Origin: Bacteroidales bacterium
GTDB lineage: Bacteria; Bacteroidota; Bacteroidia; Bacteroidales; UBA932
Reading direction: 5' to 3'
NCBI GenBank assembly: GCA_024402135.1
Contig: JAKSJN010000008.1
Span: 1 to 64,000, forward strand
Length of the DNA stretch: 64,000 nt
Below the pieces are notes generated by a model that saw only the letters and a list, made by a program, of their open reading frames with translations, ran no database searches and was not told where the DNA came from. A program made the position numbers and the translations under genes. Below are positions 2,118 through 27,576 of the stretch, piece after piece (the stretch's first letter is position 1; each line of letters opens with the position of its first letter).

Positions 2118-2148
2118 AGTGTTGTATTGCATTTGGGCGGTAATCCTA
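2087..2148. repeat. 62-bp direct repeat, copy A (receptor 5' end)
   Basis: Identical by eye to 3417-3478. It spans the intergenic region plus the first codons (MKHGISILLA) of the TonB-dependent receptor. The second copy supplies the same leader to the DUF4249 gene at 2146-3447. This is the footprint of a tandem duplication. Confidence 0.9.
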
Positions 2149-3447: not shown

Positions 3448-3478
3448 AGTGTTGTATTGCATTTGGGCGGTAATCCTA
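3417..3478. repeat. 62-bp direct repeat, copy B (DUF4249 5' end)
   Basis: Identical to 2087-2148. It includes the untranslated leader and the first ten codons of the DUF4249 gene at 2146-3447, the same as those of the TonB-dependent receptor. Confidence 0.9.
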
Positions 3479-4729
3479 GTTAATCGGATTCGAGAAGTCG
3501 ACTACCATGCTCGGCGCAACTATCAGGGTCCCTTTCTTTCTGGTCGATGTCGCAAAGAATCCAACTCCGCCGTTGATGTTGGAGTATATGTTCTCCCTCA
3601 TGTAAATGGAAAGCTCGGAGAGGTCTCCGGGCACATTGCCGTGCCTCCTTATCTGGAACAGGGCATCCTCGATATACTTGTCGTATACGTCGGAAACGAG
3701 TACGAACTGGATATAGCCGTCAGAGTATTCGGGAACGTACTCCTGGTTCTCATTGAAAAGGAATCTGTCCATCACGACTCCGTCAAGATCCGTAATCCAG
3801 CTGTGATCCGACATCAGGTTTTTTGTGCGTGTACTATATGTATGCTCATCCGTTGCTGCCGAAACCATCTTGTCTACCGCGGCATCCACATCATATATGT
3901 TGGCCCAGACGGCGATGTATGCAGATTGGTTGATATCGGTCTGCAGTCTAAGGTAGTTCCTATGGATAGGGCAGCCATTGAAAGATCGATAATATGTCAG
4001 ATACGTCGGATATTCTTTCCCATCGAGGCGGTATGGATAGTTGGAGTACGCTACTGGAGCTTCATATAACTCCCCCGTCAGATTGAAATCGTCAATTGTC
4101 TCCCCAGCTTCTCTTGCGCAGATCTTGTCAGCAAGTTCATATTTCCCCGAGGTCTTGTTCCATCTCATGCCATATATCCAGAAATGCTGTCTTTTCAGTC
4201 TGCCATGGGCAATTGATTCGCTTGCAACGAACAAAGTTGAAGAATTATGACTATCTCCCCAAGGTCTCCCGGGAGTTAGAGTGAAAGAAGATGAAGAGCC
4301 GGAAGCCATGATCATAGAATAGAGCGACTTCGAATTTTGCTCAAGAGGTACCTCGACAGGCATGGTGTCCTCGGCGTAGATCAGGTCATAGCCGGGCACC
4401 TTCACCTCGAGTCTGTACTTGTGGAGCGGAATCGCGGCATAGTCCATCCTCCACTTGCCGTCGGCGTCCCTCCTGAACTCGCCGACCGTCTTGTTGTCCG
4501 TCAGGTCGATGAGCGTGGCGACAGCCTCGGTAAGCTCCATCGCGCTGTCCTCGGACGCACCCTTGGAGAATGACAGACTGAGTTCCTGCCCCGGCTCGTT
4601 GCTCAGCAGGCACTCCACGACGACAGTCCTGTCCCCGGCGTCAAGAGTAACCTCCTTGACACACGAAGACAGCATGCCTGAGATTATCATCAGACATATC
4701 GCTATATTTAGGAATGGTGGTTTATACAT
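3476..4729 (-). CDS. DUF4249 lipoprotein, paralogue
   Basis: A 417-residue lipoprotein from the start MYKPPFLNIAICLM, with lipobox SGMLSSC. In-frame ATGs at 4750 and 4759 are alternatives; the shorter start gives the best signal peptide. DUF4249 occupies most of the chain. It is nearly identical to the gene at 2146-3447 from the lipobox to EDTMP, diverges through the middle, and resembles it again from ITDLDGVVMD to the end. It is the first gene of a DUF4249-DUF4249-TonB receptor unit. A near-consensus promoter at 4767-4798 lies at the edge of the adjoining transposase element. The likely role is a surface or periplasmic accessory of the receptor; the ligand is unknown. Confidence 0.85.
   Translation of the reverse strand: MYKPPFLNIAICLMIISGMLSSCVKEVTLDAGDRTVVVECLLSNEPGQELSLSFSKGASEDSAMELTEAVATLIDLTDNKTVGEFRRDADGKWRMDYAAIPLHKYRLEVKVPGYDLIYAEDTMPVEVPLEQNSKSLYSMIMASGSSSSFTLTPGRPWGDSHNSSTLFVASESIAHGRLKRQHFWIYGMRWNKTSGKYELADKICAREAGETIDDFNLTGELYEAPVAYSNYPYRLDGKEYPTYLTYYRSFNGCPIHRNYLRLQTDINQSAYIAVWANIYDVDAAVDKMVSAATDEHTYSTRTKNLMSDHSWITDLDGVVMDRFLFNENQEYVPEYSDGYIQFVLVSDVYDKYIEDALFQIRRHGNVPGDLSELSIYMRENIYSNINGGVGFFATSTRKKGTLIVAPSMVVDFSNPIN
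4434..4683. repeat. 250-bp identity tract shared by the two DUF4249 genes, copy 2
   Basis: Partner of 3152-3401, identical by eye. The start of the tract differs only slightly further upstream, and both flanks then become unrelated. Confidence 0.9.
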
Positions 4730-4766
4730 ACTATAGACCTTGGATGTCATTTTTTCCATATATAGG

Positions 4767-4798
4767 TAAATATAGGCAAACATAGCCAATTCCCCAAA
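4767..4798 (-). promoter_or_regulatory. Promoter for the DUF4249-receptor unit at the transposase element edge
   Basis: On the minus strand, TTTG (complement of 4795-4798), a 20-nt spacer, then TATATTTA (complement of 4767-4774), one base off the Bacteroidetes TAnnTTTG -7 box. The -33 box lies inside the repeated element and the -7 box straddles its edge. The equivalent arrangement occurs at 26551-26583. Confidence 0.5.
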
Positions 4799-4992
4799 AA
4801 CGTAATCTAATTATGACCCTGGTCAACATACTGTGACACAATGGTATAATGATAGAACAATCTCACATTCCCTGATTGCCTCTTCGCTGACAGCTTTGCT
4901 GAGCCTATTTGAAAAATACTTCGTACATAATTAAAAACACGATTTGTCGATTTCTTACTTGAAGATATGTTTTCTTGCCTGACCTTGCGTCC

Positions 4993-5372
4993 ATGGAAAA
5001 CTATCGCAGAATACATGCGCCGGAGTCAGACTTCGAGCGCGAGCCTTCAAGGAAGGACAAGTATCAACATCTATTGATTGACGACGCGTTCAAGCGCGTC
5101 TTTTAAGCCGAGGATAAAGAGCCATGGCATCAGAACGCGACATAAGGAACCAAATCAGGTACGGCAGAATTCAGGGCCACAGGGAAGGTCACAAAGAGGG
5201 CCTGGAAGAGGGTATCGTAAAGGGGATTCAGCAAGGACTTGAGCAGGGTCTCCAGCAAGGAATCGAGCAAGGGAAAACCGAAACTGCCATCAAGATGAAG
5301 GCTGCCGGTATTGACTCTGAAACCATTGCAGAATGCACAGGACTCGATATCGAAACAGTGAAATCACTATAG
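4993..5372 (+). pseudogene. Rpn-family PD-(D/E)XK transposase/nuclease, internally deleted
   Basis: The original start gives MENYRRIHAPESDFEREPSR and reaches DDAFKRVF before a TAA at 5104-5106. The nuclease core and most of the middle are missing. Reading resumes in another frame with MASERDIRNQIRYGRIQG and a Gly/Glu/Gln-rich repeat (EGHKEGLEEG...QQGIEQGKTE), ending in the family tail DIETVKSL. Full family members are about 300 residues; this copy cannot make a functional nuclease. Compared with copy 2 it has lost a further segment between two AGAGCCA repeats. The C-terminal 82 residues remain open from an ATG at 5124. Confidence 0.75.
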
Positions 5373-5384
5373 TGAACTATGACA

Positions 5385-5426
5385 ATACGAAAGACGGAGA
5401 CTCGATCGAGCCTCCGTCTTTCGTAT
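5385..5426. terminator. 42-nt near-perfect palindrome after the transposase remnant
   Basis: ATACGAAAGACGGAG and CTCCGTCTTTCGTAT form a 15-bp stem around a self-complementary CTCGATCGAG core with one mismatch pair. It sits 13 nt after the stop codon, so it may act as a terminator, though no T tract follows. The corresponding sequence in copy 2 (27404-27431) has the two non-palindromic bases exchanged, as if the hairpin were inverted. Confidence 0.55.
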
Positions 5427-5570
5427 ATGGCGAGGGTCAGACCCACAGTCTCCAGCTTTCGGAAATCCAGATACCTGAAATTCAAGGAACCCCTCCTTGA
5501 AACCTGCTATTCCGATAAGAACTGACTTCCGGACGGTTTCAATTCCGCTGTTTATTAATAGAGTGATTGG

Positions 5571-6877: not shown

Positions 6878-8338
6878 TTAGTATGAAATAAGGAAGTTCT
6901 GTCGCGAGTATAGGAAACGATTATAATTGAATGCATACCAGGTGTCTTCAGAGCGATTAAGATTTCCCCAATTGCAGTGATAGTACAGATATGAACTTCC
7001 AGACGCCACATATGGGGAGTCAATGGAGCAGTATGACTGAGAGAAGTGACCGTTGTCATATGGCTGCCATTCGGCAAAGCACATGAAGACGTTGGAATCG
7101 ATACTCTCTACTCCATCAACCACCCAGTAATGACTGTTGCCGATGTATGCCAGATTTCCCGGAACAATTGATGTGTTGTTTTGATGTCCCAGCATTATTA
7201 CCGGGCGGTTGTAGTAGAGCAACTCTCGTTTGACATCATTGTAGTTGTCAGGCTGTCTTACTACATTGTACCCAAAGTATTCGATGCCATCCTCCATATC
7301 CTCAGGTGTGCACCATGATCCAGCCGGCCAATAATGCATGTTGGTGACTTCACCAATTTTCCTTATCAATTTACTTTGGTTGGATGTCTCGTCATCATCC
7401 TCCGGGATTGAGTCCCATCCAAAGGTATAACCGCCATACGAAATCTGTGTAGGATATTCATAATACTTCATGACCTGTCCTAATGCAATTGCTCCACAGC
7501 CGGCATCATATCCGTTGCACAAATCCTTGAATGGTGAATACTGGTGCCAGTTTGTAGAAAGGAGCGGTCCGCATACATCAGAAAATGATCCTACCTTCCA
7601 TCCGACAACTGAGGCTGAAGGGCTGGAATGATTGAAGTTCGCGCTATAGCAGAGTTGGTCATATAAATCTGACTGGCCGGCCTCTTCAAAGATGTATTGT
7701 GCCCCAGCCAGGGACGAGAAGTTCCAGCCGTCATAATTGTACTGATCATAGAGCTCCTCACATCTTTCCATACAAGCGATTTCGGCGGGCGTCGAATTAC
7801 TTATGTTTGTAGACTTTGTAGCCATGGGTTTTGTCTGTCCGCTTTCGTAAAGATCCCATAGCCTGTTCATTGATAATCGTACTGAATCTGCCTGGTTTCC
7901 GCTATCCTCAACAGCGGCCATGGTCTCGTCGATCCACATCGAAAGGCCTCCGGAAGCTGATGATATGTCGAAGTGCTCCGTCTTTGAATATGCCAGAATC
8001 GGCAGATAGTCTCTGGATGCTCCGACCAGAACGAAGCCGCCGTCATTATAGTTGACTGCATACATCATGGGCTCCCCGTTCTTGCAGATACTCTTGATTA
8101 CAGCAGCTCCAGGATCCACATTGCTTGCTGCCTTGGTCAAAGGAATGGGATTCTCAGCACCCATGAACATGTTCGCGATGTCCAGGGCCTGTTTTTGAGT
8201 CACGAATGTTTGATCTTCTGAAGTTACCGACTCAAATATATCCGGTAATCTATCTTCAGCAAGATCGAAGTCCCCTTGACATGATGAACTTGCTATCAAA
8301 AGTGCAAAGAAGATAAATGATTTGATGTTTGCTTTCAT
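6878..8338 (-). CDS. C10 (streptopain-like) cysteine protease lipoprotein
   Basis: A 486-residue secreted protease from ATG 8338 (MKANIKSFIFFALLIASSSC, lipobox SSSC); an upstream in-frame TTG is unlikely. Residues about 30-150 look like the Spi-like propeptide (QKQALDIANMFMG... GGFVLVGASRDYLPILAYS). The catalytic region starts near GPLLSTNWHQ. The nucleophile Cys is in DAGCGAIALGQVMKYY (about C281) and the general-base His in GNSHYWVVDG (about H403). In this family the propeptide is removed autocatalytically. It is related in type to, but distinct from, the C10 gene at 20029. It leads a three-gene unit with a lipoprotein and a barrel protein. Targets are unknown; Bacteroides relatives cleave host proteins. 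Confidence 0.9.
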   Translation of the reverse strand: MKANIKSFIFFALLIASSSCQGDFDLAEDRLPDIFESVTSEDQTFVTQKQALDIANMFMGAENPIPLTKAASNVDPGAAVIKSICKNGEPMMYAVNYNDGGFVLVGASRDYLPILAYSKTEHFDISSASGGLSMWIDETMAAVEDSGNQADSVRLSMNRLWDLYESGQTKPMATKSTNISNSTPAEIACMERCEELYDQYNYDGWNFSSLAGAQYIFEEAGQSDLYDQLCYSANFNHSSPSASVVGWKVGSFSDVCGPLLSTNWHQYSPFKDLCNGYDAGCGAIALGQVMKYYEYPTQISYGGYTFGWDSIPEDDDETSNQSKLIRKIGEVTNMHYWPAGSWCTPEDMEDGIEYFGYNVVRQPDNYNDVKRELLYYNRPVIMLGHQNNTSIVPGNLAYIGNSHYWVVDGVESIDSNVFMCFAEWQPYDNGHFSQSYCSIDSPYVASGSSYLYYHCNWGNLNRSEDTWYAFNYNRFLYSRQNFLISY

Positions 8339-8727
8339 ATGTTTGTTTTTCAAATGGGTAGTATTATAAAAATGTAATACATTCCGATCGAATCCAAATC
8401 AAATATCTAATATTTGCATCTGCAAGTGGTTGATTTATATATGGTTATCCGGGGATAATCTAACCCGTACAATTCGCATATAGAAATCGTGATAATCAAA
8501 AGTAATATATAGCGTAAGATACATGATAATTGTATTGCTAGACCTAATTGTCGACGTCGTTGCGCGAATGAAAAAATGCGTCTTTTTCCTTTGACGAAGC
8601 AGCTCTGGGAATAACACAAGTCTGAGTCGCAGACCATGTTGCAAAGAATAGGGACCTCAGGAAGCTGGAATATCCTGATAGTCTATTGCGAAAACGACTG
8701 AAACGACAATTGCAGTAAGCATCAAGT
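8339..8727. other. Intergenic stretch without a recognised gene
   Basis: About 390 bp, AT-rich. It lies upstream of the C10 protease and downstream of the DUF2971 gene. Short open frames on the minus strand (8407-8644) have no family resemblance or sensible starts. No complete TTTG/TAnnTTTG promoter pair for the protease was found. Positions 8650-8690 weakly resemble fragments of the element 3' end, too weakly to call. Confidence 0.5.
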
Positions 8728-9615
8728 TTAGATGCTCGTCACCGGGACATTCAATCCAGACTTTGCAACGAATCTACAGACATCATCTCTGGTTGCCTCT
8801 TCCTTCACATAAATGCTCTTGAGCAAATCTATCGGCAGACGCATTTCGCGATAGAACATGATAGAACCATCCTCTCTTTGGCGAGTGAGCTCATTGGCCA
8901 CCAGTGTCCTTAACTCAGTTGGATCGAGACCAAGCTTTGTGATGGTTTCGTCATGGCCTTCGATCAATGAACTATAATTGGCGACAGGTAATGGAATAAT
9001 AGCACGAGTCTCTTCCTCCATCCAATAGTCTTTCGCATCTTTGATGCGTGGCGCTGTAACGAAAATGAGTCCCAGAGCAATCAATTTCAAGAAGAACAGG
9101 GGACAATCTTTAAGCCAAGTAAAAGCTTGCTCCTTATGAGGACCACCAAGGAATCTGTAACAAACCTCAGTATATTCTTGGCGAAGCATCTCTGTCAGTT
9201 TGTCGTCGGAATTGGCATCAACATATAGGCATGAGGCAAGGCGCAGCAAAGGAGCGTCTGGAACTTCTACGCTCACAGTATCATCAATCTCCAGTACAAC
9301 CCCATCCTCTTTGGCATATTCATGCCACATATAGTCATTGTCCGGCTGCGAAGAGAATGATACGACATAAGGGTATGGAAGATTAATGTTGTCCTTGATC
9401 TCGTTCCAATCAAACATCGGAGTAATTCGCCTGTCCTCCGGCATATCCTTCTCCACCTCCGGCAGCAACCTCCGTATCGTCTCCACACCCAACTTAAACT
9501 CCTCCATATCTGCAAAGCAGTCATACCTCGTCGCCCAGAAGCACATTTGTCCTCTGGTTGCCGCATCCTTCAGGATACTCTTAAATGCAGGTATGGTGGT
9601 GTAGTGGTAGAGCAT
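8728..9615 (-). CDS. DUF2971 domain protein
   Basis: 295 residues, cytosolic, no signal. The start MLYHYTTIPAFKSILKD and the following WATRYDCFADMEEFKLG fit DUF2971 (LYHYT...IL...W....NDxxE-like), a domain seen often in defence islands and of unknown activity; some authors relate it to ADP-ribosyltransferase-like folds. The central part includes a conserved PYVVSFSSQPDNDYMWHEYA, typical of the family. It is the last gene of the defence-like cluster, 138 nt after the receiver-like gene. Eight G residues (9616-9623) touch its start codon, giving C8-ATG on the coding strand, which may make translation or transcription slippage-prone. Confidence 0.75.
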   Translation of the reverse strand: MLYHYTTIPAFKSILKDAATRGQMCFWATRYDCFADMEEFKLGVETIRRLLPEVEKDMPEDRRITPMFDWNEIKDNINLPYPYVVSFSSQPDNDYMWHEYAKEDGVVLEIDDTVSVEVPDAPLLRLASCLYVDANSDDKLTEMLRQEYTEVCYRFLGGPHKEQAFTWLKDCPLFFLKLIALGLIFVTAPRIKDAKDYWMEEETRAIIPLPVANYSSLIEGHDETITKLGLDPTELRTLVANELTRQREDGSIMFYREMRLPIDLLKSIYVKEEATRDDVCRFVAKSGLNVPVTSI

Positions 9616-9623
9616 GGGGGGGG
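9616..9623. repeat. Homopolymeric G8 (C8 on coding strand) immediately before a start codon
   Basis: Eight consecutive G on the plus strand, directly adjoining the ATG (9615) of the DUF2971 gene. Such tracts can vary in length by slipped-strand mispairing. Here a length change would alter the ribosome-binding region, not the reading frame. Confidence 0.7.
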
Positions 9624-9753
9624 TGAGGGGCTTATGGCTTAAAGATTATGGTTTATAGAGATATAGAATACCCTTTCCTTTTTGAGACTCTATTATCTCA
9701 TAGCCCTCCCACGTACGTAGCAGGAGATGGACGTAGAACTCATTACAGACTGA

Positions 9754-11385
9754 TTACTCTAGCCTTAAAGGGAATGCAGGTCTTGATAAATATGACATAA
9801 ATTCTTGCAAATAGGCTTGTGCGTAAGGATCTTTTAAACGCATCACCCTGGATATCTTAAAGTCGACCTTATGCCCCGAAAGGACTGGAGCTTTTAGAAA
9901 ACCACCTTTGCATTGGGGATTCTTAAAACTATTCATAATGCTATCATGCATAACACCAAGAGCCTTTTTAGACTCTTCTGAATCTAATGCTCTATACTTA
10001 TCTACGAATTCCTTCACATAGTTACGGATAATATCATATCGAGCTGCCATGTTAGGACGGGTATTTGGATATGGTTCCTCTAATTCTATATCGCAAATGG
10101 CTTCGCCAGTCTTACAAAACGATACCAAATCAAGTATTGAAGATGATACCAACTTGCAAGCTGAATACCTAATCATCATTTTATTTGAATCGATTTCAAT
10201 TGGACGAGTATATGATTTGCTCTCTTTGAAGGATTCGATTGGAATAAGATACAAATAATCACCAGCTTTTCTTTTTCCAACTTCATGGTCAGCACCTCTT
10301 ATCTCAAGATTACATGGTTGACATAAGAGGATATACAGTTTATTTCCTATTTTGAATATATCACCATTCGATATAGGACTATAAATCTTATTGATAAAAA
10401 TGCCTTGAGCAAATTGCTCTTTCGACATTATCTCTTTTGCCAATTCTGTGTTATCGGGCAACTCCTGTGGACATATATTCTTGATGGTACGTAACGATCC
10501 AAACTGTTTTTGAATTGTAGTGTACATGTCTTCCGTAAGCTGGTCTTCCAATTTTGATTCAAGTACAGAGATTCCTACTCTATGCATTGTTTCATATTCC
10601 CAACAGCCCTCTTTTGATGACTCTGTCATAATTACCTTATCAAACGAGGCTGGATCTATTGTATTAAAATATTCCTCAATGCTCGATACGGCATTAGTGC
10701 ACATAGTTATGTACGAATGTTTGATTTCTGAAATCTGGCTCAGCCAAATAACGTTCCTAATGCCAGGTAGCAGATGTTCACAATCGCCTTCAGAGACTCG
10801 TCTTTTGGATAATGGATACACATTCTTTGTTTTCTCACCATTCTTCCATTGATCTATTTCATTTTCTATACTAAATTTGTCGGAAAACAGACCACAAGAC
10901 ACCCATTCTTGGTCTTTAAAAGAGCTTAGCCGTCTCAACCCGCTATCAGGATCATTTTCATCAAGATACTTATCCATCAAAATTAACAGCTGATTAGTTT
11001 CCGATGGACTGTATCCTTTCGTTTCTACATATTGATGTGTAAACTCAGAGGGAGTAACGCATGTCAGAATTCCATCTGGTAATACCTCACTGAGTTTCTG
11101 CTCTATTGTATTAGCAAGCCTCTCTATGCGATTAGTTGCTATGAAAGTATCGAACTCTTCGTTTGTTGCATTAGCAATCCATTTTTCAAGTTCCATAAGT
11201 GCAATCTCTACACTAACCTCTACAGGAAAAGGCCATTTTACATCTCCCTTTCCAAAGTTGTCTCTAAGGAATCCAAAAAGACTATCCTTATAAACATCCC
11301 TTTCAAACTCATTATCCACATAAATGACTTTTTTTATATTCTTTTGTTCAAAAAGGTTGTGTATATTCTCAGAAATTGTAGCCAT
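9754..11385 (-). CDS. Receiver-like protein partnered with the double-GHKL protein
   Basis: 543 residues, soluble. It opens with NIKKVIYVDNEFERD, resembling the beta1 and acidic pocket of response-regulator receivers, and continues with a charged helical region. The middle and C-terminal parts (VIWLSQISEIKHSYI, LYILLCQPCNLEIRGADHEVGKRKAGDYLYLIPIE) match no domain I can name. It lacks an obvious DNA-binding helix-turn-helix. The ATG is 1 nt past the stop of the double-GHKL gene, so the two are translationally linked, arguing for kinase/receiver partners as in the Response_reg_2-type conflict proteins. CxxC-like Cys are sparse. Effector activity is unknown; this is inference from layout plus the receiver-like N-terminus. 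Confidence 0.6.
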   Translation of the reverse strand: MATISENIHNLFEQKNIKKVIYVDNEFERDVYKDSLFGFLRDNFGKGDVKWPFPVEVSVEIALMELEKWIANATNEEFDTFIATNRIERLANTIEQKLSEVLPDGILTCVTPSEFTHQYVETKGYSPSETNQLLILMDKYLDENDPDSGLRRLSSFKDQEWVSCGLFSDKFSIENEIDQWKNGEKTKNVYPLSKRRVSEGDCEHLLPGIRNVIWLSQISEIKHSYITMCTNAVSSIEEYFNTIDPASFDKVIMTESSKEGCWEYETMHRVGISVLESKLEDQLTEDMYTTIQKQFGSLRTIKNICPQELPDNTELAKEIMSKEQFAQGIFINKIYSPISNGDIFKIGNKLYILLCQPCNLEIRGADHEVGKRKAGDYLYLIPIESFKESKSYTRPIEIDSNKMMIRYSACKLVSSSILDLVSFCKTGEAICDIELEEPYPNTRPNMAARYDIIRNYVKEFVDKYRALDSEESKKALGVMHDSIMNSFKNPQCKGGFLKAPVLSGHKVDFKISRVMRLKDPYAQAYLQEFMSYLSRPAFPLRLE

Positions 11386-11386
11386 A

Positions 11387-13849
11387 TTATTTTGAAATTA
11401 CTTCGTTAAAGTTCAAAGAAAATCTGTACCTGTTACCATAAATATTCAAGCTGTCATCCAAGACGATATCACACTTGTACGTATCAAGAAGTTGTCTGAT
11501 AATAAACAGCCCCAACCCACGCCCTTCACCACGTGGTTTACGTGTCACGAAAGGTTCAAATAGCGTGTTTGAAACAGATTTATCAATACCATCACCATTA
11601 TCTTCAAAATACACCCATGGACTATCCACTCGTATCATAATGCAAGACTTTTGTTCTTTAGACTCTTTCTTGTTTATGAGCCAGTATATCGAGTTATTAA
11701 TCAGATTATCAAAAACCTGCATAAATCGTCCCTTGTTGAACATAATCGAGAAGTCCTTTTCATCCTCTATTATGATATCGATATCATATTTTTTTAATCT
11801 GTCTTCGTAATATGGAATCTCTTCATTTTTCAAGAGACTCACAATACTAAACGTATCACATACCTCTCTGTTATATTTTAGGGATGGATCTAAATGGCGC
11901 ATCTGAGATCGCAGCGACGTTACAACGGAGTTTATAAAATCAACCAAACCATATAATTGGTTCTTAGTTAACTCGACATTATCCTTTAATTGCTTATTCA
12001 AATCCTGGCCCTTCGCAAGGAGTCTGTTTGAAATCTGACTGAGGTCATGAGTCACCATCTCCGATATAAGACCTAACGATGCCAACTCTGAAAAATCGTT
12101 TAGTTGTGCTTCCAGTGCAGAGAGTTTTGGTTCAATCACAACCAATGCCTCATTAAGTAAATATGAATTACTCAAAACCTCATTGGCTTGAGAGAATACC
12201 AATTTTGATTCGGATAAAACCTGCGACACTTCAGTTAATGTCTGGCGTAAAAAATCACTCTCAGGAGTATCAAACAAAGATTTCTCCTGGGACTTTACTA
12301 TTGTACTTACTTTTTTTTCAAGTATAACGAATTTGGTTTGTACCTCTTTGTATGCATTTCGTGTTTGTAATCCCATTTGAGCCTGCTCGCTGATAGTCTG
12401 AAAAGCCTGGGTTATTGTTTTCACTTTTCTATTATCAGAAACAAGGGATTTCTTAAAGTCTGCATAACAGCGTCGGAGATTTTCCATTATTTCTGCATAT
12501 CGATCTACAACCGCATGCATTAAAATGCAAAAATTCAAATAGTATCCATTTTCTATCAACCCCTCTCGGTCTGTTTTATCTTTTAAATTACTATTTACGG
12601 CTTCGTCAATGGCTATATATCCAACAACATTACCTGGTCTCAATCCATAGTATGACGATCCACCTGTTTGCCCCTGACCTAATTGTAACCAATCATTATT
12701 ATTGATGCCATAAGGACGTACAGCAAAACCATTACGATAAATTTTAATTCCAGTCTGAGACTGCACAAAACTTTTGTACTCCTTGAAGTTTTTATATAGT
12801 TCATTCCACCAGTCGCCTTTTTTGTCCTGGACTCCAAAATAAAACTCTTGGATACGACCTTTGAAATCACCAGGGTCGTCAATCTGGGAATCTGTATATG
12901 AAGCAGTATTTATGCTATCGAGTGATATACGATAATCAGCTTGAAGCCAATATGTATCATTAGCCTTTTGGAATGCTTTGCCTCTACCTTTGGAATCTTG
13001 GAAAAGGTATTGTTCAAATCGCTTCCCATTATCAGGTAATATAATACTCTTATAAGTATCATAATCATTACCTATCAATTTCCTCAAATGCACATTGACA
13101 TGTACATTCAGGAATCCTTTTTCATAAGCGAAACTAATGTCACAAAGATTTAATTGCTCCAATTTGCTGATCTCTTGTGAAATATCTATTACTTCACCAT
13201 CGATGGTGAGGTAAATATTAAAGGGTTTCAATTCTTTATATGGTGCAATAATCTGGCAAAGCGCACCTTTTAATCTCTCTAAATCTGCATCTTTCCAGCA
13301 TCCCGGATTCACAAGATCCATAAGAATCATCTTCGTACCGCTAGTTTTGGAGGATACGACGGGCTTGAAATCAACATTAACGTCACTCAGACGTTCCACC
13401 TTATCAAAGTCACTCCATTTGAATCCTACATGGAAAGCCTCTGAATCTTGCTTCTTGGTAAAAATCTCACATCGGTTTGCCAGACGCTGCGTACTTAAAC
13501 GACCTAAACCCTTATCTCCAAGAGGTGTCCTTCCTTTTGGAGTTTTCGGTTTGACACCATTTACAGCTCGCTTTTTCGAATAGGATATAATCAGCCACGA
13601 CTTTAGCAAAGTCTCTTCATCCATACCAAAGCCGTTGTCCTCTACAACTATATACCCTTTATGGTCTTCACTGTTAACATTCGAGTCTTGATATATGCCA
13701 GTAGTATTTATCTCTATGTTAACGTATGTGGCATCAGCATCATAAGAATTCTTTATTAACTCCAACAATGCTGTTACATTATCCGAAACCAACTCTGCTC
13801 CGAGTTGCCTGATGACATGTGGATTTATGTCGAACTTTGCTTTTCCCAT
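11387..13849 (-). CDS. Double-GHKL ATPase (MORC/Hsp90-like plus histidine-kinase-like)
   Basis: 820 residues, no signal or membrane segment. The N-terminal module has a full GHKL site: ELIKNSYDADA (30-40), DNGFGM (71-76) and GDKGLGRLS (111-119), as in HATPase_c_3/MORC/Hsp90 proteins. Residues about 470-590 are predicted coiled coil. A second module looks like a sensor kinase: MVTHDLSQISNRL with a candidate phospho-acceptor His at about 601, N box NLINNSIYW (about 715), DNGDGI (750-755) and GRGLGL (777-782). Two GHKL modules in one soluble chain are unusual. It lies 4 nt after the methyltransferase stop and 1 nt before the receiver-like gene. A phage- or DNA-state sensor that signals to the receiver protein is a reasonable hypothesis. 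Confidence 0.8.
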   Translation of the reverse strand: MGKAKFDINPHVIRQLGAELVSDNVTALLELIKNSYDADATYVNIEINTTGIYQDSNVNSEDHKGYIVVEDNGFGMDEETLLKSWLIISYSKKRAVNGVKPKTPKGRTPLGDKGLGRLSTQRLANRCEIFTKKQDSEAFHVGFKWSDFDKVERLSDVNVDFKPVVSSKTSGTKMILMDLVNPGCWKDADLERLKGALCQIIAPYKELKPFNIYLTIDGEVIDISQEISKLEQLNLCDISFAYEKGFLNVHVNVHLRKLIGNDYDTYKSIILPDNGKRFEQYLFQDSKGRGKAFQKANDTYWLQADYRISLDSINTASYTDSQIDDPGDFKGRIQEFYFGVQDKKGDWWNELYKNFKEYKSFVQSQTGIKIYRNGFAVRPYGINNNDWLQLGQGQTGGSSYYGLRPGNVVGYIAIDEAVNSNLKDKTDREGLIENGYYLNFCILMHAVVDRYAEIMENLRRCYADFKKSLVSDNRKVKTITQAFQTISEQAQMGLQTRNAYKEVQTKFVILEKKVSTIVKSQEKSLFDTPESDFLRQTLTEVSQVLSESKLVFSQANEVLSNSYLLNEALVVIEPKLSALEAQLNDFSELASLGLISEMVTHDLSQISNRLLAKGQDLNKQLKDNVELTKNQLYGLVDFINSVVTSLRSQMRHLDPSLKYNREVCDTFSIVSLLKNEEIPYYEDRLKKYDIDIIIEDEKDFSIMFNKGRFMQVFDNLINNSIYWLINKKESKEQKSCIMIRVDSPWVYFEDNGDGIDKSVSNTLFEPFVTRKPRGEGRGLGLFIIRQLLDTYKCDIVLDDSLNIYGNRYRFSLNFNEVISK

Positions 13850-13853
13850 TATC

Positions 13854-15179
13854 TTATTCTTTATGGAATATCAAAATAACTTCCTTCTCCATCGTTTTGG
13901 AGAAGTTGTTCTTTCTGGGCTGTTTTTTGTTTAATATCTGACGTTCGGCTCTAAAGAAGAGTGAATATCCTCGATATTGCATAAGGTCTTGCAATACCTC
14001 TGCGTTAGGAACCTCCCTTCCTCCTACAAACCTATTGCCTATTGTCCAGATGAAGAACGCATCATTACTCATTGCATTCACAATATGATCAAGGCTATCG
14101 TCAAAATCGATTATGAAAGCAAGAGTCTTATTGTATTTAGGCTTCTCATTGTCAGGAATTGTTTCAATAAAATTCCTAGCACTTTTCGATTTTTTAAAGA
14201 GTACAGAAGATTTTTCTGACAATTTTCTACGGTCAATCCTACCACCTAAACTAAGTCGATCTATTTCCTGTGTAGTCTTTATGTAGTCATAGGGACAACT
14301 CACATCCGCCGGATCTATCCATTGCAGGGGCAGATACGATGACTGACCATAAGTAACAGTTGTATGATTGTCACCATACGGTGGTGAAGAAACAAGAAGG
14401 TTGAACTTATTGTCAGTCTCTATCTTTTGCTGAGTATTCCCCCAAACAATCTTTCTGTTCCCTCTAAAATCAAAGTTATCAGCATGATGTTCTTGTTTTA
14501 ATTTGTTTTTAAACAACACATAGTCATCAATACCTCGTTTTGATATTGAAAAAAACTCTTTGATTACATCTACTTTGCGATGTGACAACTCATCTTCACT
14601 CCGTCTATGTAACTTAAAGGTAGATGTTCTGTCATTTGACCCCACTCTTATTGCCTCAGACATAAGCACCCAAAAGAAATAACGGATACTCTTATCCTCT
14701 ATTGATTGGATGGCTCGTCTTATTTTTGACAAAGAAATCTGGGCTTCACGTGTGAACCACTTATCCAAACTGCCAAAATGTATATCTATTGATTCGCTCA
14801 CATCAGATGATATATGAGAAATGATTTTTAAGTAAGCTTCCTTTAATTCAGTTTCATCATAAGCAGTGGTCTTTGCCTTTGATAATAGTACAGCAAATGG
14901 ATTAATATCTTGTCCAAATACATCTAATCCAAATTCCATACAGGAAAGCAGGGAGGTTCCCGAACCCATAAATGGATCAATGGCATTTTGGATATCACCA
15001 ACAACGTCAGCAAAAACTTTGATGATGGCAGTCTGAGTAGCAGGAACCATCATTGCAGGATACATAAAAAGTCGATGCATATTTTCCCTGCGATCTGCAT
15101 CTTCGCCATCAAGAGTACCTGTTGAACTAATTTCTGCAAGTCTCTTTAATAGTAATTCTTTTTTATCTTTTGTTATCAT
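13854..15179 (-). CDS. DNA methyltransferase (N4-cytosine/N6-adenine type)
   Basis: 441 residues from ATG 15179 (MITKDKKELLLKRLAEISS); an upstream TTG at 15203 is less likely. The AdoMet-binding motif I is DPFMGSGTS (about residues 68-76), followed by GQDINPFAVLLSKAKT. Catalytic motif IV is SPPY in VSSPPYGDNHTT (about 265-268). SPPY favours N4-cytosine, though N6-adenine enzymes also use it. Motif I precedes motif IV by nearly 190 residues, which leaves room for a target-recognition region between them. It lies 30 nt after the PD-(D/E)XK-like gene and directly before the double-GHKL gene. No classical restriction endonuclease lies beside it; the small PD-(D/E)XK-like protein is the only candidate nuclease. 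Confidence 0.85.
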   Translation of the reverse strand: MITKDKKELLLKRLAEISSTGTLDGEDADRRENMHRLFMYPAMMVPATQTAIIKVFADVVGDIQNAIDPFMGSGTSLLSCMEFGLDVFGQDINPFAVLLSKAKTTAYDETELKEAYLKIISHISSDVSESIDIHFGSLDKWFTREAQISLSKIRRAIQSIEDKSIRYFFWVLMSEAIRVGSNDRTSTFKLHRRSEDELSHRKVDVIKEFFSISKRGIDDYVLFKNKLKQEHHADNFDFRGNRKIVWGNTQQKIETDNKFNLLVSSPPYGDNHTTVTYGQSSYLPLQWIDPADVSCPYDYIKTTQEIDRLSLGGRIDRRKLSEKSSVLFKKSKSARNFIETIPDNEKPKYNKTLAFIIDFDDSLDHIVNAMSNDAFFIWTIGNRFVGGREVPNAEVLQDLMQYRGYSLFFRAERQILNKKQPRKNNFSKTMEKEVILIFHKE

Positions 15180-15209
15180 ACTGACGTATCTTTTGAATAT
15201 CAAATTCTT

Positions 15210-15791
15210 TCAAAACCCCTCCCAATACAACTTATCACTGAAGCTGAGTTCGATGCCGGTTTCGTCGAAGAAGCGGAGGATATAATCCTGGCGAGTAGCT
15301 CGGGTACGTGGAAAACGTTCCGAAACCACCACATGACAATAGACTTGGCGCACATCGGTCAGGTTAACACCTTGAGGCGCAAGCTTCTCCACGAACACCT
15401 TGATGGTTTCACTAAGCTGACCAACAGCCTTGTCAAAGGTATCAAAGACTGCCTGCTCTGAATTGCCAAGAGCATTGGTTTTGAACTCTATGAAGTGGAA
15501 CTGCTCAGAATCAAAAAGAGCCCCATCAGTGATACCTCCCTTGCGAGAAGCAACCAACATGTTGTCTATGCTGAGGAGCACAATCTCCTTGTTCTTCTCG
15601 TTGATAACCATTAGTGCACGCCCTGCGTCATCGGCATCGCCCGAAAAGCGGGTGGCATGGGTGTCGTCATCATCTATAACGAGAAGTTCCGAATCCATGC
15701 GCACGCTCCAGCACTCGTCAAAAGGCTTATGGCTCTGTGCAAATGCTTCTGCCAACTTCAATCCGTCTATCGCCTTGTTCCTTCCCGCCAT
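15210..15791 (-). CDS. Small PD-(D/E)XK nuclease-like protein
   Basis: 193 residues from MAGRNKAIDGLKLAEAF. This ATG is one base beyond the ATPase stop and follows a GAGGGG ribosome-binding-like stretch. A longer start at 15851 would overlap the ATPase by 59 nt and is disfavoured. The core reads TDGALFDS...HFIEFKT, consistent with a D-x(n)-EXK active site (D89, E102, K104) in a PD-(D/E)XK fold. No better family was recognised. Its tight coupling to an OLD/Septu-like ATPase suggests an ATPase-controlled nuclease. Alternatively it could be a structural partner that has kept the fold; activity is inferred from one motif only. Confidence 0.6.
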   Translation of the reverse strand: MAGRNKAIDGLKLAEAFAQSHKPFDECWSVRMDSELLVIDDDDTHATRFSGDADDAGRALMVINEKNKEIVLLSIDNMLVASRKGGITDGALFDSEQFHFIEFKTNALGNSEQAVFDTFDKAVGQLSETIKVFVEKLAPQGVNLTDVRQVYCHVVVSERFPRTRATRQDYILRFFDETGIELSFSDKLYWEGF

Positions 15792-15792
15792 A

Positions 15793-16983
15793 TTACTTGC
15801 CCCTCTTGAGTTTGAGATAGAGGCGATAGAGACTGTCATAGTCATCTCCAATCACTTCTGAGACGGCGTCCAAACCATTTATACCAATCAGATGTGTTTT
15901 CTCGTCTATCAGATTTTTGCAATATATATCGGCATCAGGATCGAGCGCATAGACCGAAATGGTCCGTTCGTTGAAATACACTCCCTGGTAAACCTCCTGC
16001 AAGGCCTCTTTACCATCCTGAAACTCGTTGACGATACGCCAAGCCAACAGCATGACATTCAGACATGAGAGAATGTATGGGCTATGGGTTGTTATGATGG
16101 TATTTGTTATTCGGCCTATGCGGTTCAGCAGGAACTGTATCAACTCGCGCTGATTGGTTGGATACAGATTCTGTTCCGGTTCCTCAATTACAAATGCATC
16201 GAAGCAACCTATCTGAAGAGCATAATCAATCACCATCACCAGTGGCAGTACTGATTGCAGTCCTGACGAACAAGCCTGGAGGGGCAATAGGCGCTCGGTC
16301 CCATCATAGCTATCTACTACACGAATGCGCTCCTTGCCATCCTTGATTACGAAATCTGCATTCAAGAAAGGAACATGATACTCACGAAGAGCATTTTTCG
16401 CCTTCTCAAACACACTCATGTATTCTATTAGTGCATCATATAAAGGTACGCGAGCAGCCAGCATACTTGCCAAAGAAGTAGATAACGAGCCAGCTAGATT
16501 GCGCTCTGCCGGAACATAGAGAATTGTTCGAGCATTTGAGTTTATGATCTCGCCATACTTCTCCTGAACAGAAGCATCATTGATATCCGTCACCCCCAAC
16601 TGAGTTAGAAGCGTTTGATTTGACAGCAACAAGAAACTATGAATCTTTACCGCCATCTCTTCTCGAGAGATTTCCCGTACATCAATACCGAACTCTCCTT
16701 TCTCGTAAGTGATTACGTAATGAGCTATTTCATTTTCTGCCTCATATCGAATCACTGTATCGTCATAGAAAAACTCGTCGATACAGAATTTCGCGAAAGG
16801 AGCCTTAAGGTTCTCTGCAGCATTCAGCAGTCGGAGTATCCAGCTCATATCACGGCAAATGGTGAGGACCTTCGATACGGTACTCTTACCACAGCCCTGT
16901 GTTCCGATAAAAACGGTCAGCGGCAATATCTCAACACTCAAGTCCTTGACAGGACCGAAATGACGAATTTTCAATAGCTCCAT
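15793..16983 (-). CDS. ABC/SMC-type AAA ATPase (OLD/Septu-like)
   Basis: 396 residues. Walker A is GTQGCGKST (27-35). A signature-like CSSGLQSVLPL (238-248) follows, then Walker B FDAFVIEEPEQNLYP (about 261-275) and switch His in IITTHSPYIL (about H300). This is the AAA_21/AAA_15 architecture of OLD, PtuA, AriA and RloA ATPases. It has no TOPRIM domain, so the nuclease function must lie in a partner, most likely the adjacent PD-(D/E)XK-like protein. It is the first gene of the six-gene unit, with a consensus promoter upstream (17045-17076). The ATPase-nuclease pair resembles Septu or PARIS in logic but not in partner. Confidence 0.85.
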   Translation of the reverse strand: MELLKIRHFGPVKDLSVEILPLTVFIGTQGCGKSTVSKVLTICRDMSWILRLLNAAENLKAPFAKFCIDEFFYDDTVIRYEAENEIAHYVITYEKGEFGIDVREISREEMAVKIHSFLLLSNQTLLTQLGVTDINDASVQEKYGEIINSNARTILYVPAERNLAGSLSTSLASMLAARVPLYDALIEYMSVFEKAKNALREYHVPFLNADFVIKDGKERIRVVDSYDGTERLLPLQACSSGLQSVLPLVMVIDYALQIGCFDAFVIEEPEQNLYPTNQRELIQFLLNRIGRITNTIITTHSPYILSCLNVMLLAWRIVNEFQDGKEALQEVYQGVYFNERTISVYALDPDADIYCKNLIDEKTHLIGINGLDAVSEVIGDDYDSLYRLYLKLKRGK

Positions 16984-17044: not shown

Positions 17045-17076
17045 CAAATTTAATATTTTATATTAAGTAGCCCAAA
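17045..17076 (-). promoter_or_regulatory. Promoter of the defence-like gene cluster
   Basis: Read on the minus strand: TTTG (complement of 17073-17076), 20-nt spacer, TAAATTTG (complement of 17045-17052), then a leader of about 60 nt to the ATPase ATG at 16983. Both boxes match the Bacteroidetes housekeeping consensus exactly. Confidence 0.7.
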
Positions 17077-19516: not shown

Positions 19517-19925
19517 CTACAGATTACTCAACTTCAATCGCTTCATTTCCGCAATTGAGCAGAAGAACTGGTTGATTTCTTTGAAATCACTAATGACACT
19601 TTCGTTGGCATTACGGATTAGACAGATTGAACAATACTGATTGTTATTGCAATGCAGGCAGGTTTGGAAATCCTTAAGTCGAAGAGCCCGCAGTGCATTC
19701 AGTTGTTCGGAATCCTTCCATATAGAAGAAAGACTCTGTGATCGTATGTCCCCTATAGTATGCTGCTGCCATCCCTCGCATGGGTATGCTGATCCATTCC
19801 ATGAGATGCATATGGAACTGGTTCCGACAGGGCAAATCTTTGAATCTACAATATATGAAATACTACATCTCCAAACCATTTGAAACAATATCAGAATCTG
19901 GAAGAAACAATTGATGTTGAATTAT
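19517..19925 (-). pseudogene. Truncated radical-SAM/SPASM peptide-maturase, C-terminal remnant
   Basis: Only the SPASM-type cluster-binding tail survives: ICPVGTSSICISWNGSAYPCEGW, DIRSQSLSSIW, then CLHCNNNQYCSICL with its regularly spaced Cys. The CxxxCxxC radical-SAM core is absent; the open frame runs back only to an in-frame TAA near 19925, and the ATG at 19879 has no leader. Family members are about 350-450 residues, so roughly the first two thirds are lost. The missing part is replaced by the upstream region of the C10 protease operon, suggesting that its arrival truncated this gene. No precursor peptide gene was recognised nearby. Confidence 0.7.
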
Positions 19926-19968
19926 CGACAGTTCATGTAGAGTATAAAAGAATGTCGTGTTTTCTTAT

Positions 19969-19999
19969 TTTGAGATGTATGTCGAGTTTTTCATATTTG
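19969..19999 (+). promoter_or_regulatory. Candidate promoter of the C10 protease operon
   Basis: TTTG at 19969-19972, 19-nt spacer, CATATTTG at 19992-19999 (one base off TAnnTTTG), then about 29 nt to the ATG at 20029. It lies next to the truncated radical-SAM gene. Confidence 0.45.
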
Positions 20000-20028
20000 T
20001 TAATAACATTCATAAAAACAGCGAAGAA

Positions 20029-21306
20029 ATGAAAAAAATGTTATTAGCATCCTGTTTGATCTTATTCTTTTCATGTGAGAAGGCAATGGACTACTCGATT
20101 CACAAATCAAGTGAAAACCTATCAATCAGTTTGGACGAAGCTTTAGAGAACTTAAACACAGCAATAAATACGTTGTATGGATCAGGAACTAAGGCAATGG
20201 GTACATTTTCATATTCTCACTCAAATATCCAAACCTTTACGAGTGACAAACTGATGTGCCAAACGAAGGGTGGTTTCAATGTGATGTCAATCCCTGATAG
20301 TCTATTCTATATAGTAAACTTTGATGATGATCAAGGCTTTGCGATTCTATCAGCTACAAAAAGACTATCTAGTGATGTTTATTGTATTACGGAATCTGGA
20401 CATTTGTCGATTGAAGATTTTAATATCAATTTTCATTCTTCACAGACTAAAAGTTCCGATAGTGATAGTTCTGAGGAAGAGTTTGTCCCTATTGGTCTAG
20501 ATGTGATCCCTGCTCTTCTTATTTCAGATATCATGATTGAATTATCAACAGAACAATCGCAATCCGATAATAATGACTCTATTACAAAAGCCGGAACCCT
20601 CAAATATGGCCCTTACTTAAAAACAAAATGGGAGCAGAAATATAGTAATTATGGTCAGGGTGTAAGAGTGTTTAATCGTTATACTCCACACCATGCTCCT
20701 GCTGGATGTGTTGCTATTGCGACTGCACAGATAATGGAGTCTAAAAAGTATGCTTCTGGTAACAATTACTTCGATGGAGTTCATTGTGACTGGAATAATA
20801 TGGAAACTGTGAATAATTATATGGACATAGGGACGTATCTTTCAGGTGATACTACCTATTTTGATCAAGTCGCACATTTTGTCAGAGAAGTTGGTCGCCA
20901 ATGTGATATCAATTATGGGAACAATGAGTTTGGTTCATCCAGTGGAGGATATGCCGTAGGGGCAAAGCAATGTTTGGAGCATTATGGCTATTCAAACGTG
21001 AAAAGGCTTCTGGGCTTTGGTAGTACTAACCAGAACAAAGCAAGCCTTTGTATAAGAAATGAAAACCCTGTATATTTGGACGGTTATAAGACCGGTTTAG
21101 GTGGACATGCATGGGTGCTAGATGGTGAATTCGGGAACTTTTACCATATTAATTGGGGATATGCAGGTGCTTCGGATGGCTATTATGAAAAAGGAGTTTT
21201 CAAGACAACTTCGCGTTATACAAGAGACCTCGAATATGATAGAAATACATCTGAGTATGATTTAGAATTTACGTGGGATTTTAGACTTGTAACTTATGAG
21301 CTGTAG
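20029..21306 (+). CDS. C10 (streptopain-like) cysteine protease lipoprotein, second locus
   Basis: 425 residues from MKKMLLASCLILFFSC (lipobox FFSC); a longer in-frame start at 19957 would precede the signal peptide and is rejected. The N-terminal 190 residues are a Spi-like propeptide with two acidic linkers (SDSDSSEEE, QSQSDNN). The catalytic domain starts near GPYLKTKWEQ. The nucleophile is in HHAPAGCVAIATAQIM (about C227) and the catalytic His in GGHAWVLDG (about H360), followed by YHINWGYAG. It is closer to the canonical family motif than the first C10 gene. The stop overlaps the start of a small lipoprotein by 11 nt, so the two are translationally coupled. Confidence 0.9.
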   Translation: MKKMLLASCLILFFSCEKAMDYSIHKSSENLSISLDEALENLNTAINTLYGSGTKAMGTFSYSHSNIQTFTSDKLMCQTKGGFNVMSIPDSLFYIVNFDDDQGFAILSATKRLSSDVYCITESGHLSIEDFNINFHSSQTKSSDSDSSEEEFVPIGLDVIPALLISDIMIELSTEQSQSDNNDSITKAGTLKYGPYLKTKWEQKYSNYGQGVRVFNRYTPHHAPAGCVAIATAQIMESKKYASGNNYFDGVHCDWNNMETVNNYMDIGTYLSGDTTYFDQVAHFVREVGRQCDINYGNNEFGSSSGGYAVGAKQCLEHYGYSNVKRLLGFGSTNQNKASLCIRNENPVYLDGYKTGLGGHAWVLDGEFGNFYHINWGYAGASDGYYEKGVFKTTSRYTRDLEYDRNTSEYDLEFTWDFRLVTYEL

Positions 21307-26583: not shown

Positions 26584-26777
26584 ACGACATCTAATTATGT
26601 GCTTGGTCAACACAATGATATACAGGGGTATAGAAATGGCACAATCTCACTTCACCCCGAATGCTCTTCGCTGACAGATTTGCTGAGCATATTGGTTAAA
26701 ATAAATTGTACATAATTGAAAACACGATTTGTCGATTTCTTACAAGAAGATATGTTTCCTTCTCTGACCTTGCGGCC

Positions 26778-27378
26778 ATGGACAATTTTAGGAAATCAAT
26801 GGCTCCGGAGTCAGACTTCGAGCGTGAACCTTCAAGGAAGGACAAGTATCTGCATCTATTGTATGATGACGCGTTCAAGCGCGTCTTTTAAGCCGAGGAT
26901 AAAGAGCCACTATATGTTCAGGGATGCCGACGGCAAGGACACGATGACGGACAAACTTCAGTTCGTGTTCATCGAGCTGCAGCGTTTTACAAAAAAGGTC
27001 GAGGAGTGCGAGACTTTCGAGGAAAAGCTATACTTTTGTATGCGGCACATGTTTAAGCTGGAGAGCCGTCCCGAAAACCTTAGGGGAGAATATTTCGACA
27101 ATCTCTTCCAGGTGGCGGACATCGCGAACATGACCGCAAAGGATCACGAAACATACGTAAGAGCCATGGCATCAGAACGCGACATAAGGAACCAGATCAG
27201 ATACGGTCGGATTCAGGGCCACAGGGAAGGCCTGGAAGAGGGTATCGTACAAGGTCTTCAGCAAGGAATCGAGCAAGGGAAAACCGAAACTGCCATCAAG
27301 ATGAAGGCTGCCGGTATTGACTCTGAAACCATTGCAGAATGCACAGGTCTTGATATCGAAACAGTGAAATCACTGTAG
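26778..27378 (+). pseudogene. Rpn-family PD-(D/E)XK transposase/nuclease, internally deleted
   Basis: The start MDNFRKSMAPESDFEREPSR reaches DDAFKRVF and stops (TAA), exactly as in copy 1. Reading continues in another frame as HYMFRDADGKDTMTDKLQFV, FIELQRFTKKVEECETFEEK, YFCMRHMFKLESRPENLRGE and YFDNLFQVADIANMTAKDHE, then MASERDIRNQ and a short GLEEG/QQGIEQG repeat. The nuclease core between FKRVF and HYMFRD is missing, about 80-90 residues by family length. The shared junction in both copies shows that this deletion predates the second, copy-1-specific loss. It has a shorter Gly/Glu/Gln repeat than copy 1. Confidence 0.75.
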
Positions 27379-27403
27379 GGGACATATATTCAAAGAGAAA
27401 GAA

Positions 27404-27431
27404 AGACGGAGGCTCGATCGAGTCTCCGTCT
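27404..27431. terminator. 28-nt palindrome after the copy 2 transposase remnant
   Basis: AGACGGAG...CTCCGTCT around CTCGATCGAG, one wobble pair, 25 nt past the stop. It equals the copy 1 palindrome (5385-5426) read from the opposite strand. A terminator is possible, but there is no T tract. Confidence 0.5.
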
Positions 27432-27576
27432 GTCGTATATGGCGAGGGTCAGACCCACAGTCTCCAGCTTTCGGGAATCCAGATACCTGAAATTCAAGGA
27501 ACCCCTCCTTGAAACCTGCTATTCCGATAAGAACTGACTTCCGGACGGTTTCAATTCCGCTGTTTATATGAGGCAA

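Follow-up and report, generated by a model that had tools for sequence, protein, structure and literature searches.

Do six co-oriented genes at positions 8728–16983 (minus strand) of a Bacteroidales genome segment make up one defense system? The segment, called the window throughout, is a 64,000-nucleotide stretch (positions 1 to 64,000 of contig JAKSJN010000008.1, our C33, from the 2.6-Mb genome GCA_024402135.1). A preliminary description, made from the letters alone, had read the six genes as a single cassette: an ATPase, a PD-(D/E)XK-like protein, a DNA methyltransferase, a double-GHKL protein, a receiver-like protein and a DUF2971 protein. Their co-orientation and spacing were confirmed, including the 138 nucleotides (nt) before the last gene; the short gaps require ATG starts in genes 2 and 3, whose longest open reading frames (ORFs) start with TTG. 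The cassette as such did not survive comparison with related loci. The six genes are three units, namely a trio of methyltransferase, kinase and receiver, a pair formed by the ATPase and the PD-(D/E)xK-like protein, and the last gene. The trio, which is our main subject, is one conserved, co-inherited module.

A co-inherited methyltransferase, kinase and receiver

The trio and the domains of its third product are laid out as follows.

13854..15203, minus strand: trio gene 1, amino-DNA-methyltransferase, 449 amino acids (aa) from TTG or 441 aa from the ATG at 15179 (PADLOC MTase_II, 1e-84)
11387..13849, minus strand: trio gene 2, MORC-like GHKL domain, middle region and histidine kinase, 820 aa (two HATPase domains above the Pfam cut-off)
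9754..11385, minus strand: trio gene 3, receiver, helical linker and predicted C-terminal MazF/CcdB-fold domain, 543 aa (model pLDDT 81)
10735..11340, minus strand: receiver domain of gene 3, residues 16–217 (predicted fold)
9775..10380, minus strand: MazF/CcdB-like C-terminal domain of gene 3, residues 336–537, the proposed effector (predicted fold)

Related loci were collected from public genomes with a search profile built on the double-GHKL protein, using the best 80 of 283 confirmed matches, to which 70 loci from one scan of viral contigs and two plasmid loci found through the receiver were added. Near-duplicates are present among these 152 loci, which amount to 141 at 80% kinase identity. 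The window's class is receiver cluster 2, with 16 loci for which context was available (L005–L019 and L087). In 15 of the 16, the genes for methyltransferase, kinase and receiver lie side by side on the same strand; in the exception, L019, a related methyltransferase lies convergently, just downstream. Measured on the longest ORFs, methyltransferase and kinase are −8 to +30 nt apart, and kinase and receiver −86 to +57 nt. The loci come from Bacteroidota, a Rhizobium plasmid, a metagenome-assembled genome (MAG) of Deltaproteobacteria, MAGs labeled Nanoarchaeia and a viral contig. The two Nanoarchaeia loci (L016, 8590–14210; L018, 8617–14181) reflect either an archaeal host or a binning error, and in both a 91-aa ORF, winged-helix-like by eye, precedes and overlaps the methyltransferase.

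The three remaining genes of the block do not travel with this module. The ATPase, the PD-like protein and the last gene were found in none of the 16 trio loci (phmmer, E ≤ 1e-3), of which 14 offer at least 2.7 kb of upstream sequence, the contigs of L007 and L008 starting 0.6 and 0.3 kb before the methyltransferase. Likewise, the ATPase was found in none of 13 whole genomes of trio carriers at E ≤ 1e-20, while the same query matches other genomes. Synteny of the whole set fails, and it is the middle three genes that form a conserved block. The protein distance matrices of the trio correlate with one another (r of 0.73, 0.71 and 0.84; 0 of 5000 permutations reached each value; 17 loci). The class is rare, since a full-strength kinase match occurs in 2 of 295 genomes of the order, the window's own and G119, where kinase and receiver were read. 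In the preliminary description a methylation-guarded nuclease with an ATPase sensor had been joined to a kinase-like arm; methylation and kinase arm do belong together, in a single module, and the ATPase and PD-(D/E)xK protein fall outside it.

The key residues of ATPase, kinase and receiver are intact. The methyltransferase carries the motifs DPFMGSGT and SPPYGDN; in an alignment of 17 rows, D76, G80 and S273–N279 (SPPYGDN) are invariant and the remainder of DPFMGSGT is variable. Its Pfam DNA methylase match is below the cut-off (20.1 vs 26.7 bits). The kinase has an N-terminal HATPase_c_3 domain at residues 26–151 (5.3e-18) and a C-terminal HATPase_c domain at 708–800 (1.9e-16), and its profile positions 554–814 match the histidine kinase LvrB (8vc9; 1.2e-20). 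His601, followed in the window by Asp602, is invariant in 18 kinase rows. Across a wider set of 150 rows, in which the H, N and G boxes are conserved, the H-box histidine is present in 145, with Ser in four and Gly in one, and the next residue is Glu in 127 and Asp in 11. In the receiver, D24, D138 and K194 are invariant in 18 rows, the Ser/Thr being judged by eye; with two more distant rows added, D138 and K194 are still invariant and D24 is conserved in at least 90%. The residue after D24 is N25 in the window and mostly Asp elsewhere.

The receiver tail and its sister classes

What would the phosphorelay act upon? The C-terminal domain of the receiver protein seems to carry a MazF/CcdB toxin fold, as predicted from two models. 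In a BFVD comparison, a PemK/MazF protein ranked second (E 0.049). The tail residues G341, D342, F344, Q356, C358, R363, D419 and R513 are invariant. A Foldseek comparison of the whole receiver protein placed dynamins at the top, at a probability of about 0.2 or less and a root-mean-square deviation of 28–38, and this candidate was set aside. No DNA-binding output domain appeared among the fold matches listed for the protein, in which the helical middle was barely tested.

Adjacency is general across the kinase/receiver family: in 150 of 155 kinase loci a co-oriented ORF comes directly after the kinase, at a median distance of −3 nt (from −99 to 102). The receivers fall into classes, which were defined from the same loci later counted. 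Profile comparisons link classes 0 and 1 (97.3%), 1 and 2 (96.1%), 1 and 5 (99.0%), 2 and 10, and 2 and 11; the pairs 0–2 (12.4%) and 5–10 (9.3%) gave no link, and 2 against 5 gave 71.9%. These links rest partly on a tail region, G-D-[ILV]-[FV]...C-[DN]; for classes 3 and 4 the link to the rest is confined to the receiver part. The strict pattern C[DN][LIVCA] after residue 150 is found in 17/18, 7/7 and 3/3 members of classes 2, 5 and 10, in only 7/33, 10/20 and 1/2 of classes 0, 1 and 11, and in 0/43 of classes 3, 4, 7 and 8; classes 0 and 1 were counted as tail-bearing on the basis of the profile alignments. By eye, the tail motif is also seen in receivers of A. baumannii, Agrobacterium and Campylobacter plasmids.

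The tailless classes carry another gene. In class 3 the receiver is about 210 aa long without a tail, and the adjacent gene encodes 184–222 aa; HNH probes matched this gene in 16 of 17 loci, and Pfam HNH was confirmed in both of the adjacent genes tested. In class 4 a longer receiver without the MazF-like tail is accompanied by an adjacent gene of 232–268 aa in 16 of 17 loci. This third gene matched no Pfam family in the two members tested, with one weak match below the cut-off, and is possibly another type of effector. Example loci for the two classes are L043, L046, L083 and L124, and the class 4 gene lies near an Eco57I-type methyltransferase. Immediately behind the receiver there is a co-oriented third gene in 32 of 34 loci of classes 3 and 4 together but in only 2 of the 16 loci in the window's class, and the HNH probes matched neither of these two. 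The other tail-bearing classes are intermediate, with an adjacent third gene in 15/33 loci of class 0 (two of them HNH), 13/20 of class 1, 2/7 of class 5 and 1/3 of class 10.

The methyltransferase is shared across these arrangements. It was detected within 6 kb in 74/79 loci of the tail-bearing classes 0, 1, 2, 5 and 10, in 16/17 of class 3 and in 15/17 of class 4, and was often not detected in single-member classes. An apparent restriction of the methyltransferase to tail-bearing receivers (75/80 vs 0/34) proved an artifact that arose because the two probes used were narrow; the methyltransferases of classes 3 and 4 are of Eco57I/N6 type. Because sister classes without the tail carry a separate nuclease or another gene instead, the most economical reading is that in the window's class the tail stands in for the separate nuclease and is itself the effector.

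Several caveats attach to the reading of the tail as a toxin-like effector. The tail of the window protein matched no Pfam family at E ≤ 5, and a tail profile found no MazF in the PDB at E ≤ 10. It is like the MazF/PemK and CcdB toxins in predicted fold but unlike them in having no sequence family match and in its invariant residues, G-D-x-F...Q-x-C-[DN]...R; to our knowledge, the invariant Q-x-C-D/N corresponds to no MazF catalytic motif. No conserved fourth gene, as a candidate antitoxin, is present at the trio loci. In the class comparison, class 0 joins class 2 only via class 1, and two of the four HNH probes derive from class 3, which favors class 3. Lastly, three of the 16 loci (L012, L014 and L017) do have an HNH gene no more than 10 kb from the trio. 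A scan of 91 proteins encoded at most three genes away from the 16 trios on each side, with 25 families listed of 117 and 123, contained four HNH_2 members, consistent with these three loci, which the scan does not name.

The remaining genes and their surroundings

The other elements of the block, and one gene near it, are the following.

17045..17076, minus strand: Bacteroidales-type promoter TTTG-N20-TAAATTTG before the first gene (exact pattern)
15793..16983, minus strand: gene A of the separate module, OLD-like ABC/AAA ATPase, PDC-M29A, 396 aa (AAA_15 2.8e-19; PDC-M29A 5.9e-39)
15210..15851, minus strand: gene B of the separate module, small PD-(D/E)xK-like protein, PDC-M29B, 213 aa from TTG, with an ATG at about 15791 (PDC-M29B 5.9e-11)
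8728..9615, minus strand: third unit, the last gene, 295 aa, previously labeled DUF2971 (absent from the 16 trio loci)
22248–24011, minus strand: abortive infection phage resistance (AIPR) protein, a second defense-type gene about 5 kb from the block (PF10592, 1e-36)

The ATPase and its small neighbor form, by sequence and neighborhood, a separate two-gene module that is found without the trio. The AAA_15/AAA_21 matches exceed the Pfam cut-off, and the D...E[FLI]K motif of the PD-like protein is conserved in six aligned proteins. Five of the 295 genomes of the order, the window's own among them, have relatives of the ATPase (E ≤ 1e-25). In all five other loci, from four genomes (L158–L162), a small ORF with the D...E[FLI]K motif lies directly behind the ATPase; phmmer ties two of these to the PD-like gene, and for the remaining three the evidence is their position and the motif. 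No trio genes were found near the ATPase in these loci within the 2.6–4.2 kb read. In L162 (998–3686, G057) the ATPase and small partner have as neighbors a 252-aa ORF and a fragment that by eye is methyltransferase-like, so that this pair, too, can become part of loci of restriction-modification (R-M) type.

In composition the pair recalls PADLOC PDC-M29/WonAB, in which an OLD-like ABC ATPase is followed by a small PD-(D/E)xK-like protein; this likeness, drawn through the PDC-M29 profiles, concerns the pair and not the trio. WonAB acts by abortive infection according to the passages available of its description. Two other assignments were rejected. The Septu match (PtuA, 2.5e-11) is weaker than that to PDC-M29A, and the partner has the D...E[FLI]K motif and no HNH match. 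For PARIS, AriA matches at 1.1e-21, but the only PADLOC match of the partner is PDC-M29B, with no Pfam match.

The last gene belongs to neither the trio nor the ATPase module. It matched no Pfam family at E ≤ 10. DUF2971 is the one label of the preliminary description that was not confirmed; ATPase, PD-(D/E)XK-like protein, methyltransferase, double GHKL and receiver were borne out.

The promoter announced for the block was found exactly, on the minus strand. Its pattern, which we take to be the Bacteroidetes −33/−7 consensus, occurs eight times in the window vs 0.40 expected, and a sigma-70 promoter scan of the window gave no excess (23 found vs 25.7 expected).

Base composition agrees with the division, as the GC breaks coincide with the boundaries of the three units. 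The trio genes have a GC content of 0.365, 0.371 and 0.364, with the ATPase at 0.446, the PD-like gene at 0.491 and the last gene at 0.464; at third codon positions the trio lies at 0.32–0.35 vs 0.48–0.55 for the other three. The block was correctly described as AT-rich (GC 0.399 vs 0.483 for the window), but the 17–26 kb region matches it in this (0.392) and the six genes differ among themselves. By dinucleotide distance (×1000), the trio lies closer to the 17–26 kb region (18) than to the ATPase/PD pair (82) or to 28–64 kb (91).

Direct repeats about 22 kb apart (4913–5555 and 26698–27567), in two copies of a PDDEXK_2 transposase-like gene region, look like the borders of an acquired island. 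They comprise four pieces of 120–212 nt at 79–98% identity and enclose the AT-rich stretch with the trio, the C10 peptidases and AIPR. An empty insertion site was not found; four flanking genes had no close homolog in 20 relatives. The C10 peptidases, with Spi inhibitor prodomains (Peptidase_C10, Inhibitor_I69), lie either side of the block at 6878–8353 (minus) and 19957–21306 (plus). A 123-aa ORF at 19517–19888 (minus) consists mostly of a SPASM domain (1.1e-12) and may be a piece of a larger radical-SAM protein. Two tandem paralogs at 2146–3462 and 3476–4789 (minus), 69% identical over the matched part, are lipoprotein-like by eye. At other trio loci, the families listed in the neighbor scan include BREX, Hma, GajB-like, GmrSD, HNH and resolvase, with one to four members each, as well as a terminase family; L087 is itself an IMG/VR viral contig.

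Known relatives and a proposed mechanism

The closest published counterpart of the trio is a kinase/receiver pair described in silico in 2021 (PMC8011034). In the passages available, the pair shows 91.6% linkage in 644 regions, association with R-M and kinship to paraMORC; it is suggested to regulate R-M, and apart from a note that the Pectobacterium genes are transcriptionally activated, these passages contain no functional experiment on the pair. The window pair shares with these HEF_HK/Response_reg_2 proteins (PF19191/PF19192) a kinase of HATPase_c_3, H-box and HATPase_c, an adjacent receiver, R-M nearby and the paraMORC kinship. The features given there recur here, with adjacent kinase and receiver genes, an R-M gene near, and a core His followed by Asp or Glu, and the window pair plainly works like those pairs. 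We nonetheless keep it out of the two families because neither profile passes its cut-off. PF19191 scores 12.4 vs 24.1 bits on the kinase, at residues 474–515 and away from the H-box, and PF19192 gives no match to the receiver protein at E ≤ 1. Among 23 genomes with related loci, PF19192 exceeded its cut-off in none and gave matches below it in 10, one of which (E 0.011) is placed as expected for the L018 receiver. There are further differences: C5 methyltransferases prevail in the passages of that study, whereas the window's is amino-type, and the Response_reg_2 proteins there are without other known domains, no effector being named. The predicted MazF/CcdB-fold tail would be new relative to that account as available, as would the alternatives mapped in sister classes. 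The preliminary description had treated the exact set of genes as unfamiliar; the ATPase/nuclease pair does match PDC-M29 and the trio's kind is already on record, in silico.

Other relatives illuminate single parts. MORC and paraMORC proteins in R-M operons have been proposed to loop DNA between sites (PMC2292703, in the passages available), which fits a sensor of DNA state. Like the trio, the paraMORC1/MORC operons unite GHKL and S5 ATPases with methylases and endonucleases, and paraMORC1 can co-occur with HNH genes, but the term 'receiver' is absent from that text and a kinase function of paraMORC1 is not given in its available passages. GHKL-Shedu VcSduA (PMC12137116, in part) and BbrUII-HgiDII (NF050001) likewise place an N-terminal GHKL ATPase in a defense or restriction protein, whereas the C-terminal half of the window protein is a histidine kinase and not a nuclease. 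Among the papers listed in searches of open-access PMC text, no tested defense system was found to connect its trigger with its effector by a phosphorelay. The closest case is a Marinomonas histidine kinase and response regulator reported to give phage resistance through regulation of CRISPR-Cas (PMC8523701), a two-component pair that, by its title, regulates another immune system, with no hint of a fused effector or methyltransferase in the passages available. HATPase and REC also appear in a legend on predicted E. coli systems with unvalidated domains (PMC13092281, in part).

Taken with these comparisons, the trio is probably a restriction or abortive-infection system that is associated with methylation and gated by a phosphorelay, with the MazF-like tail of the receiver as its effector. 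We predict this activity from co-inheritance, from the intact residues of the ATPase, the kinase and the receiver, from the predicted folds and from the alternative genes of the sister classes. The methyltransferase would mark the host genome, and the MORC/MutL-like ATPase, a clamp fused to the histidine kinase, would engage and survey DNA. On meeting DNA whose state is wrong, be it for lack of methylation or for some other phage-like trait, the kinase would autophosphorylate on His601 and the phosphate would pass to Asp138 of the receiver protein. This phosphorylation might free or activate the MazF/CcdB-fold tail, which could then cleave nucleic acid or poison an essential machine and so stop phage or cell. 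Phosphotransfer, the trigger, toxicity and anti-phage function are all inferred. The upstream ATPase/PD-(D/E)xK pair would be a separate WonAB-like module sharing the transcription unit by chance, and the last gene a passenger or accessory.

The chief alternative, which we regard as rather unlikely, is that the trio is a regulatory cassette in which kinase and receiver control the methyltransferase or restriction enzymes elsewhere, the tail being a binding or regulatory barrel. It would accord with the published proposal that such two-component pairs regulate R-M and with the Marinomonas precedent, and equally with the methyltransferase near most kinases and the unfamiliar Q-x-C-D/N motif. Yet a recognized nuclease is usually not there to be regulated, because our probes and scans detected no HNH gene at 13 of the 16 trio loci and a third gene behind the receiver is lacking in 14 of 16; in the window the PD-like neighbor belongs to the ATPase module. 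The exchange of the tail for an adjacent gene in classes 3 and 4 (HNH in class 3) likewise speaks against regulation, as does the lack of a DNA-binding output domain among the fold matches listed, although these barely covered the helical middle of the protein.

Two further readings seem very improbable. That all six genes form a composite system, in which the ATPase senses, the PD-(D/E)xK protein cuts, the methyltransferase protects and kinase and receiver tune, is suggested by the single promoter, shared strand and short gaps of a seeming single transcription unit. We reject such a cassette because three of the genes are absent from the 16 related trio loci and the ATPase pair stands without the trio elsewhere; together with the differing GC and dinucleotide signatures of the modules, this largely refutes it. 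Marginally less credible still is a Type II R-M remnant, in which an orphan methyltransferase accompanies a BbrUII/HgiDII-like restriction enzyme (the GHKL protein) and a receiver-like protein without signaling role. Residues 6–181 of the GHKL protein do match the NF050001 family (2.8e-24), but the match spans positions 3–169 of a 659-position model and scores 85.6 against a cut-off of 550 bits, and the C-terminal half matches solved histidine kinases, with conserved boxes, next to a receiver whose key residues are invariant.

Histidine-kinase signaling is a very common bacterial sensory circuit. If the phosphorelay reading of the trio holds, some bacteria may switch on a defense effector through a phosphate relay. 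More broadly, and here we are tentative, the wider family could be a class of immune systems in which a phosphorelay is the sensor that reads DNA modification, the methyltransferase supplies the self-mark and the effector is interchangeable, either a fused MazF/CcdB-fold toxin or a separate HNH or other protein. The predicted fused effector, seen alongside a separate HNH gene in a sister class, gives a specific hypothesis centered on His601, Asp138 and Cys358, and the receiver-effector scheme would offer a new way to find such systems.

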